From Ethanoligenens harbinense YUAN-3 (GTDB lineage: Bacteria; Bacillota; Clostridia; Oscillospirales; Ethanoligenentaceae), in contig NC_014828.1 of assembly GCF_000178115.2 (NCBI RefSeq), forward strand, positions 1,581,310-1,645,309: a DNA stretch of 64,000 nucleotides. The letters run 5' to 3'. Within the stretch, counting starts at the first letter, position 1, and each line of letters begins with the position of its first letter. The translations under genes and the position numbers were made by a program. Of this stretch, positions 50,612-55,683 are shown in pieces. A model generated the notes under the pieces. That model made no database searches and was not told the DNA's origin. It was given only the letters and a program-made list of their open reading frames with translations.

Positions 50612-50708
50612 AGGGCTCGGAGGCTCGGGGTGCCGTCGTCGGCTGAGAGGGAGCATTCGCTTCCAACCCGTTGAACCTGATGTGGTCAAACCCACCGTAG
50701 GAAAGCTT
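50612..50708 (+). ncRNA. TPP riboswitch (THI element)
   Basis: The conserved THI-element blocks are present in order: CTCGGGGTGCC, GGCTGAGAGGGA, then AACCCGTTGAACCTGATGTG, and the closing CCACCGTAGGAAAGC. The thi-box core (GCTGAGA, ACCTGAT, CGTAGG) is intact, so the aptamer should bind thiamine pyrophosphate. It lies in the leader of thiG-thiH-thiE-thiS and is followed by a terminator hairpin, giving a transcription-attenuation switch. Exact P1 boundaries are approximate. Confidence 0.93.
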
Positions 50709-50728
50709 TGCTGTTGCTGCACGTTTGC

Positions 50729-50803: not shown

Positions 50804-51589
50804 ATGCAGAACGATCCGTTTGTCATCGGCGGCAAAGTGCTGAACAGCCGCCTTTTTGTAGGCACGGGCAAATATCCCGACAACCGCATGATCAGGCAGG
50901 TAGTAGACGCCTCCGGAGCGGAAGTGGTCACCGTGGCGCTGCGCCGGGTGAACCTTTCCTCGGCGGAGGAAAACCTGCTCCGTTTCGTCCCGGAACACTG
51001 CACCCTGCTGCCCAACACGTCCGGCGCGCGCACAGCGGAGGAAGCCGTGCGCATCGCCCGTCTGGCGCGGGCGGCAGGCTGCGGCGACTGGATCAAGATC
51101 GAGGTCATCGCCGACCAGAAATACCTGCTGCCCGACAATGAGGAAACGCTCAAGGCCACCCGCATGTTGGTGGACGAGGGCTTTCAGGTTTTCCCATACA
51201 TCTGCCCGGAGCTGATGTGCGCCAAACGCCTGCAGGAGGCGGGCGCGACCGCCGTCATGCCGCTCGGCGCGCCCATCGGCAGCAACCGCGGCCTCCAGAC
51301 GCGCGCGCTCATCCAGATCCTCATCGACGAACTCGACGTTCCCGTCATCGTGGATGCGGGCATCGGCGCGCCGTCTCACGCCACCGAAGCAATGGAGATG
51401 GGCGCGGGCGCCGTGCTGCTTAACACCGGCATCTCGTCCGCCGCCGACCCGGTTGGCATGGCGGAAGCGTTCGGTCTGGCCGTGCGCGCGGGTCGGCTTG
51501 CCCACCGCAGCGGGCTTGGCGCCACCTCTTCCGTGGCCAATGCGTCCTCGCCGCTCACCGGCTTTCTGGACGAAACGGCACGCGCGTAA
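50804..51589 (+). CDS. thiG: Thiazole synthase ThiG
   Basis: A 261-residue (beta/alpha)8-barrel enzyme that assembles the thiazole ring of thiamine from DXP, dehydroglycine and ThiS-thiocarboxylate. The Schiff-base lysine lies in [10 protein letters not shown] near residue 98. Other landmarks are [21 protein letters not shown], the [12 protein letters not shown] loop, and [23 protein letters not shown]. Start MQNDPFV follows CAGGAGGATTTACGCAT. First gene of the riboswitch-controlled operon. Confidence 0.95.
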
Positions 51590-51601: not shown

Positions 51602-52720
51602 ATGGATTTTTACGACTATCTGCAAACCTACAACAACTTTGATTTTCACGGGTTTCTTCAAAAGACCACCGGCGGGGACGTGCGCCGGGTGCTGGGCAAA
51701 ACCACGCTGGAACCGCTGGACTTCCTCACGCTGCTCTCCCCCGCCGCCGTGCCGTTCCTCGAGCAGATGGCGCAGCGCGCCCATGCAGAAACCATTCGGC
51801 AGTTCGGCCGGGTCATCTTCATGTTCGCGCCTCTTTATCTGGCCAACTACTGTGTCAACCGCTGCGCTTACTGCGGCTTCAATGTCGGCAACCATATCCG
51901 CCGGGCAGCGCTCACGCTTGAGCAGGTGGAGAAAGAAGCAGCCGCCATCGCTTCCACCGGCATGCGGGATATTCTGTTCCTCACCGGCGAGTCGCGCAAG
52001 ATCAGCCCGCCGGCCTACATGAAAGACTGCGTGGGCGTGCTGCGCAACTATTTCACCAACATCTGCCTGGAAGTCTACCCGCTTGAAACGGAAGAATACG
52101 CCATGCTGGTCGAAGCGGGCGTGGATGGTTTCACCATGTTCCAGGAATGCTACAACGAAAAGCGCTATGGCGAGGTGCATCTCGGCGGGCCGAAAACCAA
52201 TTTCCGCTACCGGCTGGACGCTCCGGAGCGCGCCTGCAAAGCCGGCATGCGCAGTGTGGGACTGGGTGCGCTGCTCGGGCTGTACGAGCTTTCGTCCGAA
52301 GCGTTCTTCACCGGCCTGCACGCCTATTATCTCCAGCGCAAATACGACGCCTGCGATTTCGCGGTGTCGCTGCCCCGGCTCTGCGCGCACATCGGCGCGT
52401 TCCAGCCCTACACCTCCGTCTCCGACCGGGACATTGTGCAGATCATGACCGCCCTGCGCATCTTCCTGCCGCGCGTGGGCATCACGGTCTCCACAAGAGA
52501 AGCCCCGGCGTTCCGCTCCAACCTCATCGGGCTGGGGGTCACCAAGATGTCCGCCGCGTCCTCCACCGAGGTGGGCGGCTATGCCGAACACACCACCGAC
52601 GACCAGTTTGACGTGACCGACAAACGCAGTGTGGAGGAAGTGACCGCATCTATCCGCGCCAAGGGCTGGCTGCCCGTCTTCAAGGACTGGCAGACGCTCG
52701 GCCGGGAGGCCGCCGTATGA
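51602..52720 (+). CDS. thiH: 2-iminoacetate synthase ThiH (radical SAM)
   Basis: A 372-residue radical SAM enzyme cleaving tyrosine to dehydroglycine for ThiG. The cluster motif is NYCVNRCAYCGF (CxxxCxxC) near residues 84-91, followed by the GGE-like FLTGESRK, and the C-terminal thiamine-type domain (SVSDRDIVQIM, TREAPAFRSNLI). Using ThiH and not glycine oxidase fits an anaerobe. Start follows AAGGAGGCTGTCTC, 12 bp behind thiG. Confidence 0.95.
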   Translation: MDFYDYLQTYNNFDFHGFLQKTTGGDVRRVLGKTTLEPLDFLTLLSPAAVPFLEQMAQRAHAETIRQFGRVIFMFAPLYLANYCVNRCAYCGFNVGNHIRRAALTLEQVEKEAAAIASTGMRDILFLTGESRKISPPAYMKDCVGVLRNYFTNICLEVYPLETEEYAMLVEAGVDGFTMFQECYNEKRYGEVHLGGPKTNFRYRLDAPERACKAGMRSVGLGALLGLYELSSEAFFTGLHAYYLQRKYDACDFAVSLPRLCAHIGAFQPYTSVSDRDIVQIMTALRIFLPRVGITVSTREAPAFRSNLIGLGVTKMSAASSTEVGGYAEHTTDDQFDVTDKRSVEEVTASIRAKGWLPVFKDWQTLGREAAV

Positions 52721-53382
52721 GCGCACAGGCAAAGCGGGCGGAAAAAGTCGCCGCATACCTCAACGGGCTCTACTGCATCACGGCGGAGCCTCTCTCCTGC
52801 GGGCGGGAGAATCTCGACGTGGTGCGCGCCATGCTGGTGGGCGGGGCCAAAGTCGTGCAGTACCGTGAAAAGGACATGCCCATGCAGCGCCAGTACGAGC
52901 AATGCCTGAAACTGCGGGAAATGACACGCGAAGCAAACGCGCTGCTCATCGTGGACGACCATGTGCACCTGGCCATGGCCGTGGGCGCAGACGGCGTGCA
53001 CATCGGCCAAACCGACCTGCCCATCGAGGCGGTGCGGGCGCTGGTTGGTGCGGAGATGCTCATCGGCCTTTCCACCCACGACATCGGACAGGCGCGGGAC
53101 GCGGTGGCGCGCGGTGCGGATTACATCGGCGTGGGCCCGATCTTCGAAACACACACCAAATCCGATGTGGTCGCACCGGTGGGGTTTGCCTATCTGGACG
53201 CTGTCGTGCGTGAGATCCGTCTGCCGTTCGTTGCCATCGGCGGCATCAAACAGCACAACCTGCCCGACGTGCTGACGCACGGCGCGGCCTGCGCGGCGCT
53301 GGTCACCGAAATCGTGCAGGCGCCGGACATTTCCGGTATGGTCAAAGAGCTCCGTCAAATCTTTTCCGCCCAAACCACGTGA
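52717..53382 (+). CDS. thiE: Thiamine-phosphate synthase ThiE
   Basis: A 221-residue enzyme coupling HMP-PP with thiazole phosphate. Typical elements: VVQYREKDM (QxR/K), LLIVDDHVHLAMAVGADGVHIGQTDLP, IGLSTHD, GADYIGVGPIFETHTKSD and AIGGI near the C-terminus. It overlaps thiH by 4 bp (ATGA), so the two are translationally coupled. Confidence 0.94.
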   Translation: MSAQAKRAEKVAAYLNGLYCITAEPLSCGRENLDVVRAMLVGGAKVVQYREKDMPMQRQYEQCLKLREMTREANALLIVDDHVHLAMAVGADGVHIGQTDLPIEAVRALVGAEMLIGLSTHDIGQARDAVARGADYIGVGPIFETHTKSDVVAPVGFAYLDAVVREIRLPFVAIGGIKQHNLPDVLTHGAACAALVTEIVQAPDISGMVKELRQIFSAQTT

Positions 53383-53396
53383 AAGGAACGAACCTG

Positions 53397-53603
53397 ATGA
53401 AACTGCAAGTCAACGGTGAACCCGAAGAACTCGAAAACGGCATCACTCTTTCCGCTTTTCTGCTGTCCAAGGGCATTGATCCTCAAACGGTGGTGGTGGA
53501 GCGCAACGCGGACATCCCCGACCGCAGCACCTGGGACACCCTCACCCTCACCGACGGCGACGTGCTGGAGATCGTTCGCTTCATGGGCGGCGGACAGGCA
53601 TAA
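53397..53603 (+). CDS. thiS: Sulfur carrier protein ThiS with a two-residue extension beyond Gly-Gly
   Basis: A 68-residue ubiquitin-fold protein (MKLQVNGEPEELENGITLS; VVVERNADI; GDVLEIVRFMGGG). It normally carries sulfur as a C-terminal Gly thiocarboxylate for ThiG. Here the Gly run is followed by Gln-Ala before the TAA, so the Gly-Gly end is not free. Start MKLQVNG follows GAAAGGAACGAACCTG; it lies 14 bp behind thiE. The activating enzyme ThiF is not encoded in the operon or elsewhere in the window. Confidence 0.9.
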   Translation: MKLQVNGEPEELENGITLSAFLLSKGIDPQTVVVERNADIPDRSTWDTLTLTDGDVLEIVRFMGGGQA

Positions 53604-54903: not shown

Positions 54904-55470
54904 ATGAAACAGGCTTTGATCATTGTGGATGTGCAGCGAGAGTATTTCCCCGGTGGGAAGTTGGAGCTCTACAAGCCGGAGAAAGCCTTGGAGCAGATAC
55001 AAAAAGCGTTGCGGTTGTTCCGTGAGAAGGAATGGCCCATATACTTTATTCGCCACATCAGTTCACAGAAAAGCGCCTCTATTTTTCAGCCTGACACGGT
55101 GGGCGTGGAGTTGCATCCCGCGCTCATGCCCCGCCCGGGGGAAACCGTGTTGGATAAGCATTTTCCCAATTCCTTCTTGGGAACCGGGTTGCGTGAACAT
55201 CTGGTCGCCCAGAACGTGCAGCGCCTTGTTGCCTGCGGGATGATGACGCATATGTGCATGGACACAACCGTCCGCGCCGCGCAGAATGACGGTTTCCCGG
55301 TGACACTGCTGGAAGATGCCTGTACGGGGATAGCGTTGGATTGGGACGGAAAAACCGTTCCTTACCCCACCGTTCATGCCGTTATGATGGCGTCGATCAA
55401 CGGCACGTTTGCCACCGTGGAGAAGACAGAATGTTTTTTACAGGACCATCAACAGAACCTGCATAATTGA
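54904..55470 (+). CDS. Isochorismatase-like cysteine hydrolase
   Basis: A 188-residue enzyme. The catalytic triad positions are visible: Asp in LIIVDVQREYF (residue 9), Lys in LDKHFPNSF (near 84), and the nucleophilic Cys in GMMTHMCMDTTVRAA (near 118), which also carries the family cis-peptide region before it. Such hydrolases act on isochorismate, nicotinamide or N-carbamoyl compounds; the substrate is not predictable. The ATG follows GCAGGAGGTAATACCGT. Confidence 0.92.
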   Translation: MKQALIIVDVQREYFPGGKLELYKPEKALEQIQKALRLFREKEWPIYFIRHISSQKSASIFQPDTVGVELHPALMPRPGETVLDKHFPNSFLGTGLREHLVAQNVQRLVACGMMTHMCMDTTVRAAQNDGFPVTLLEDACTGIALDWDGKTVPYPTVHAVMMASINGTFATVEKTECFLQDHQQNLHN

Positions 55471-55491: not shown

Positions 55492-55683
55492 TTGAACCCC
55501 GAAAAAGTGTTGTTGGTAATTGACATACAGGAGATTATGTGGACGGGAATCGGATGCGATTCAGCCCGCCTGTGCACAACAAGCAAAAGCTGTACGCACG
55601 CTCAAACCCAAAAGAGCAAACAGGCCATCGGACGGCAGCTTGCCCAATCAGGGGATTATAACAAAAAGCACCCCCATTTTTAA
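55492..55683 (+). pseudogene. Fragment of a second cysteine hydrolase gene
   Basis: A frame beginning with TTG encodes NPEKVLLVIDIQE, which is the N-terminal strand and catalytic-Asp motif of an isochorismatase-like hydrolase, then quickly loses similarity and ends after 63 codons. It lies 21 bp behind an intact hydrolase of the same family and looks like a truncated tandem homologue. It ends at a strong terminator. Confidence 0.5.

Follow-up and report, generated by a model that had tools for sequence, protein, structure and literature searches.

Enzymes of the ThiF type adenylate sulfur carriers at a C-terminal glycine carboxylate, a requirement established for the pairs ThiS/ThiF and MoaD/MoeB. 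In thioquinolobactin synthesis (QbsE/QbsD) and in cysteine synthesis (CysO/Mec+), C-terminal residues of the carrier are removed by a JAMM protease. The protein-thiocarboxylate homocysteine pathway of Wolinella succinogenes was reportedly described by Krishnamoorthy and Begley in 2011, in work that PMC5764234 cites, and its parts are the carrier HcyS, the JAMM HcyD and the E1 HcyF. According to the sections of two further accounts used here, one E1 of Thermus thermophilus, TtuC, is common to TtuB, MoaD and ThiS (PMC3980101), and DRJAMM of Deinococcus radiodurans cleaves a MoaD-MoaE fusion to the C-terminal glycine (PMC8832034). In the excerpted text of Iyer et al. (PMC1779556), JAB proteins are described as absent from the thiamine pathway, ThiS-ThiG fusions are noted, and JAB is proposed to release the carrier from fusions. 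JAMM maturation of sulfur carriers is not new in itself; the new part in the present case would be its link to the ThiS of thiamine synthesis. Judging from the sequences, the ThiS described here is quite probably trimmed by a JAMM and charged, once trimmed, by the E1 of the same distant gene cassette for the synthesis of thiazole.

A tailed ThiS in a thi operon

The window, i.e., the whole stretch of 64,000 nucleotides that was analysed, contains a thi operon with the following features:

50616..50720, plus strand: TPP riboswitch (THI element) at the head of the operon; Rfam RF00059, 67.2 bits, gathering score 54.3
50804..51589, plus strand: thiG, thiazole synthase, which takes sulfur from ThiS; open reading frame, 412 bits with a profile of the relatives' ThiG whose seed contains the window sequence itself
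51602..52720, plus strand: thiH, 2-iminoacetate synthase; TIGR02351, 497 bits, cut-off 380
52717..53382, plus strand: thiE, thiamine phosphate synthase; TIGR00693, 207 bits, cut-off 145
53397..53603, plus strand: thiS, sulfur carrier of 68 aa with the encoded C-terminus FMGGGQA; NCBIfam TIGR01683, 72.4 bits, cut-off 37.45
53595..53600, plus strand: Gln-Ala tail (CAG GCA) that follows Gly-Gly-Gly and would be cut off by a JAMM; sequence and comparison with 127 ThiS proteins

The last codons of thiS read ATG (53583), GGC, GGC, GGA, CAG (53595) and GCA (53598), followed by the stop TAA (53601-53603), and the protein accordingly ends in ...RFMGGGQA, just as the initial annotation had noticed. The protein was recognised as ThiS by its score over the TIGR01683 cut-off and by its place among thiazole-synthesis genes behind a TPP riboswitch; an encoded Gly-Gly end is lacking (GGGQA), and membership of the family is profile-based. 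The encoded end should be unusable as it stands, because adenylation requires the glycine carboxylate, and trimming is predicted to restore the glycine end. The gene order is thiG-thiH-thiE-thiS as opposed to the usual thiS-thiF-thiG-thiH, and neither thiF nor a protease gene is found within the operon. As the genome consists of one contig of 3,008,576 bases, the tail did not arise at an assembly edge; a base error may exist, the sequence being taken from the assembly.

The window ThiG is placed on a very long branch (length 1.53 in a tree of 95 ThiG proteins), so this protein (50804-51589) may have evolved fast or have originated elsewhere. This branch, the loss of thiF from the operon and a first tail codon, CAG, one step away from TAG would all fit a decaying ThiS, in which the stop was lost, e.g., by a change from TAG to CAG, the carrier is not charged and thiazole is poorly made or taken up. 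Such an inactivating stop-codon shift, also considered by the initial annotation, is unlikely, since ThiS otherwise scores well, the riboswitch is intact and so are thiH and thiE, thiC is present in the genome (578 bits, cut-off 460), and similar tails occur in thi operons of several separate lineages, in the tabulated set only together with a JAMM.

Outside the operon, a short frame at 55492-55683, noticed by eye, begins like an isochorismatase-type hydrolase (NPEKVLLVIDIQE) and has the appearance of a truncated remnant; the isochorismatase-like gene that precedes it (54904-55470) is intact.

The E1-JAMM-TusA cassette and its relatives

Searches with PF02597 and TIGR01683 returned one ThiS-family protein from the genome, the window ThiS, and no second carrier of this family. 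Two ThiF-family proteins scored above the cut-off. One is a MoeB/ThiF-like E1, to which E. coli ThiF, Uba4 and MoeB are the closest solved chains; the other has the tRNA cyclic-t6A synthase TcdA as its best model, with a score under the TcdA cut-off. Exactly one JAMM protein exceeded the PF14464 cut-off, and it is encoded together with the E1:

genome 2187921-2188628, minus strand: E1 of the MoeB/ThiF-like class; ThiF-family search
genome 2187487-2187807, minus strand: JAMM metalloprotease, directly downstream of the E1; PF14464, 79.7 bits, cut-off 25
genome 2187137-2188757, minus strand: E1-JAMM-TusA cassette; gene content

The metal motif of the JAMM is intact (HSHPSSPPRPSAED, i.e., HxHx7Sx2D), and the solved chains resembling it are 2kks and, more weakly, archaeal JAMM1/AfJAMM. 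The JAMM frame overlaps that of the E1, a TusA-like gene follows immediately after the JAMM, and the frames of the cassette overlap or abut throughout. The earlier remark that thiF and a protease are absent thus holds for the operon but not for the genome, as the search for thiF/moeB and JAMM genes that had been proposed along with it yielded a single E1 of the MoeB/ThiF type and a single strong JAMM. Two features of JAMM-matured carriers of the HcyS/QbsE/CysO kind are present, namely a JAMM with intact motif paired with an E1, and a tail (Gln-Ala) beyond the terminal glycines. A third, a carrier encoded beside E1 and JAMM, is not seen for the window ThiS: thiS is found at 1634.7 kb of the genome and the cassette at 2187 kb, i.e., unlinked and approximately 550 kb apart. 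No TPP or other riboswitch was detected at the E1-JAMM cassettes, that of the window genome included; a T-box and tRNAs were located near, not at, two of the clusters, and the TPP switches that were found precede thiS.

Strong JAMM matches were obtained in 10 of 297 genomes of the order and in 25 of 393 genomes of the class, the window genome being counted in both and a genome being scored positive at PF14464 E <= 1e-12, with the weaker matches, of which there are many in the order, scored as negative. Where order genomes were annotated, E1 and JAMM stand with a ThiS-like carrier. The cluster at locus L115 contains in addition a PLP-dependent sulfhydrylase of the MetY type, sulfite reductase, TusA, thioredoxin and a FAD protein with ferredoxin. 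Two further proteins of this cluster have PAPS-reductase and EF-Tu-type GTPase domains; we read them, with names that are partly inferred, as CysD and CysN. These clusters correspond to row 4e in the excerpted table of Iyer et al. 2006 (PMC1779556), where a ThiS/MoaD-like protein, JAB, E1, SirA, sulfite reductase and O-acetylhomoserine sulfhydrylase are listed. With the MetY of the L115 cluster as query, the MetY proteins of the window genome reached at most 338 bits as compared to 446-921 bits for cluster members, and none of them is of the cluster type. We take the row 4e cluster type to be the homocysteine pathway of Wolinella. The combination by which a cluster of the Wolinella type was recognised, sulfite reductase plus cluster-type MetY, is absent from the window genome, which gave no match to the nitrite/sulfite reductase domain (NIR_SIR). 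The genome has kept E1, JAMM and TusA, whereas three other parts of such a cluster, the carrier, its type of MetY and sulfite reductase, are missing. As part of the explanation that we prefer, and regard as likely when taken as a whole, the cassette derives from the JAMM-dependent sulfate-assimilation/homocysteine system of the relatives.

Separate from the sulfate-assimilation cassette, a second, different JAMM was observed next to a long (~480 aa) E1-like protein in G216, G239, G557 and G627 (loci L120, 6235-8125; L117, 8072-9981; L156; L157).

Distribution of tails among ThiS proteins

The comparison comprised 127 ThiS proteins from 104 genomes, i.e., the order sample without a weak match in G201 (E 2.4e-4), the family member G003, and all 42 ThiS proteins of the 24 JAMM-bearing genomes of the class. 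By location, 94 of the proteins were assigned to thi operons, 28 were found beside a JAMM, and five were placed as other (G090, G216, G239 and G254 untailed, G598 tailed and E1-linked), the latter standing outside the thi-operon counts. In the thi operons, 89 of the 94 proteins end exactly at the glycines, and the five tailed ones carry QA (window), C (G245 and G628), SC (G651) or a fusion to ThiG (G580). No tail was found where thiF is near (0/82, made up of 0/66 in JAMM-negative and 0/16 in JAMM-positive genomes; G003, which ends in GGG with thiF adjacent, was scored as JAMM-negative though it lies outside the order set searched for JAMM). Tails were likewise lacking in the two operons with neither thiF nor JAMM, and were present in five of the ten without thiF in JAMM-positive genomes. 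The other five of these ten, untailed, belong to G370, G472, G561, G575 and G664, and no thiF-like frame was found near their thi operons even at a relaxed threshold. G664, like G515, is a borderline positive, over the JAMM threshold with just 28-29 bits against the cluster-JAMM profile, and both may hold another JAMM type. By Fisher's test 5/10 against 0/84 gives p about 5e-6 with relatedness ignored. The absence of thiF is associated with the tail among JAMM-positive operons taken alone (p = 0.004), and the association of JAMM with the tail among thiF-less operons alone, 5/10 against 0/2, is not significant (p = 0.32).

All 28 carriers beside a JAMM are tailed, with tails of one to nine residues and Gln in first place in five of them. 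That a peptidase other than the JAMM trims the window ThiS, with the E1-JAMM-TusA cassette serving another carrier or a role in protein conjugation, appears very improbable to us: in its favour, JAMM proteins elsewhere in bacteria and archaea act on conjugates too, according to the sections used of PMC3980101 and PMC8832034, and no riboswitch ties the cassette to thiamine, while against it no second ThiS-family carrier was found in the genome, and a JAMM accompanies the tail in 28/28 cluster carriers and 5/5 tailed thi-operon ThiS. Trimming by a JAMM-type protease, one of the options the initial annotation had offered, is by contrast well supported by a sole strong JAMM with intact motif directly behind an E1, and by tails confined, among thi operons, to those without thiF in JAMM-positive genomes. 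Its other option, delivery of sulfur by a different route, is right in part, as the E1 would come from another sulfur system. The tail is uncommon in thi operons, with 5/94 proteins carrying one and the remaining 89 ending at the glycines; taken together, the interpretation of the initial annotation is partly supported.

The tailed operons do not form a single group. In the ThiG tree of 95 rows, which includes four further named tailed operons, the label has to change six times, and well-supported branches force at least three of these changes; the bootstrap of this tree had not quite converged, and the window sequence sits on its long branch. When scored with profiles of untailed thi-operon ThiS and of JAMM-cluster carriers, all tailed thi-operon ThiS fall in the thi class, which suggests that the tails arose by convergence and not by transfer of a carrier. 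The window ThiS was also considered as a relocated JAMM-cluster carrier of the HcyS class, and this was rejected with 79.7 bits for the thi profile and 47.9 bits for the cluster profile. A Met before GGG (FM) is found in 4/5 tailed thi-operon ThiS and 28/28 cluster carriers, as compared to 1/89 untailed thi-operon ThiS. The tail itself may also be selectively neutral, i.e., the JAMM would make mutations that open the thiS stop codon to readthrough tolerable, with trimmed and untrimmed forms equally usable; this concerns why the tail exists and not its removal. We regard it as possible, if short of probable. The five untailed operons among the ten that are thiF-less and JAMM-positive, and the free variation of cluster-carrier tails in length (1 to 9 residues) and sequence, speak for neutrality; the retention of a tail by all 28 cluster carriers speaks against it, as does the recurrent FM before GGG in tailed ThiS, suggestive of an adaptation to JAMM and E1. 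Because five thiF-less JAMM-positive thi operons are without a tail, we describe the tail as permitted by the JAMM and perhaps favoured, but not required; a borrowed E1, or an E1 elsewhere, can therefore work on an untailed ThiS.

The fused case, G580, is known from one incomplete genome of 100 contigs, with a completeness of 92 per cent, where the sole ThiS shares one reading frame with ThiG (FMGGG-APEDK-ThiG) and the E1-JAMM pair has no neighbouring carrier, a gene content like that of the window genome. Because of the suggestion in the excerpted text of Iyer et al. and the MoaD-MoaE cleavage reported in the Deinococcus account, this fusion is easiest to understand as a putative JAMM substrate. 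Further tailed ThiS were read from 80 loci, the best of 423 that were confirmed, with JAMM looked for in 50 of those 80, by means of a query alignment with some start and end coordinates off by one codon, used solely as query: Blautia luti, B. massiliensis and B. schinkii end in SC, Eubacterium sp. AF22-9 in QV (GGGQV, read by eye as the profile picked the wrong frame) and Eubacteriaceae UBA4266 in C. B. schinkii is identical with G651 of the tabulated set. At all five loci ThiG is near and no thiF is present in the flanks retrieved, and a strong JAMM was found in 5/5 of the genomes.

Two ThiS proteins with unusual settings or ends were also recorded. In G239 a second ThiS, ending in FLGGG, is more than 8 kb away from any thi, E1 or JAMM gene (L116, 8179-8553), and in G247 the ThiS at L102, 5252 onward, ends in FMGGD, i.e., with Asp for the expected last Gly, and has thiF adjacent and no strong JAMM in the genome. 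Among the Sphingomonadales, ThiS and ThiG share a fused frame in 38 of the best 80 of 423 loci (within L232-L303). A contrast in JAMM content between fused and unfused genomes of this group was rejected as evidence, as a JAMM is present in 24/24 and 20/20 of those searched, respectively; against the cluster-JAMM profile the JAMMs of the four loci retrieved (L305-L308) score only 37-43 bits, and these short loci showed no E1 gene. Novosphingobium endophyticum (L241) has an unfused ThiS ending in GGGHL and a JAMM in its genome.

Proposed route and comparison with known systems

We infer the trimming from the sequences, the gene content, the intact JAMM motif and the joint distribution of tail, JAMM and thiF. 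Against it stand the lack of linkage between thi operon and cassette and the absence of a TPP riboswitch near the cassette. In the proposed route, ThiS would be made as a precursor with the Gln-Ala tail; the cassette JAMM would remove Gln-Ala, presumably by a cut at exactly this position, and expose the glycine carboxylate; and the MoeB/ThiF-type E1 of the cassette, as the presumed partner of ThiS, would adenylate the trimmed protein. Sulfur would then be loaded, possibly via TusA, and the ThiS thiocarboxylate would supply ThiG. In this genome the homocysteine system would have lost the sulfite reductase, the MetY type and the carrier that belonged to it, and the thi operon its thiF. A wider version, to which we give an even chance, is that thiamine synthesis in several Clostridia was rewired onto a JAMM-E1 cassette from sulfate assimilation, and that after the loss of thiF the ThiS convergently gained a tail that can be removed, which in one genome is ThiG itself in the form of a fusion. 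JAMM processing would thereby have become a step of B1 synthesis, and in the window genome and G580, where the original carrier is lost, the cassette may serve thiamine alone.

In the open literature, for the most part outside subscription papers, we found no paper tying a JAMM to thiamine ThiS. If the proposed route is true, the statement on the absence of JAB would no longer hold for thiamine, and there would be an explanation for working thi operons without thiF and for ThiS proteins that do not end in Gly-Gly. This is of relevance for the prediction of vitamin B1 prototrophy; a survey of gut vitamins, in the portion cited here, brackets ThiF and ThiS in its pathway signature (PMC6593275). 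The cases would in addition be repeated natural examples of a ubiquitin-like carrier coming under a JAMM protease, and a simple model for the origin of precursor processing in ubiquitin-like proteins.

With the canonical ThiS-ThiF relay of E. coli and B. subtilis the present system shares the ThiS family, the operon context and the ThiG partner, but the operon is without thiF, the glycines are followed by a tail, and a MoeB-like E1 is encoded elsewhere. The Wolinella pathway is similar in that genes of the E1, JAMM and TusA types are grouped and that its carrier extends past Gly-Gly; it differs in that the carrier here is a thi-operon ThiS feeding ThiG, and that the cluster carrier, the MetY type and the sulfite reductase are absent. 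QbsE/QbsD and CysO/Mec+ involve dedicated carriers in their own clusters, unlike a thiamine ThiS. As with TtuC, ThiS can be charged by the E1 of another pathway's machinery, whereas the cited part of the Thermus account covers sharing of the E1 and not trimming of a ThiS tail. A parallel to the release predicted for the ThiS-ThiG fusion of G580 is DRJAMM, by which, in the cited part of that work, a sulfur carrier is freed from a fused partner, although the Deinococcus case concerns the molybdenum cofactor and not thiamine.
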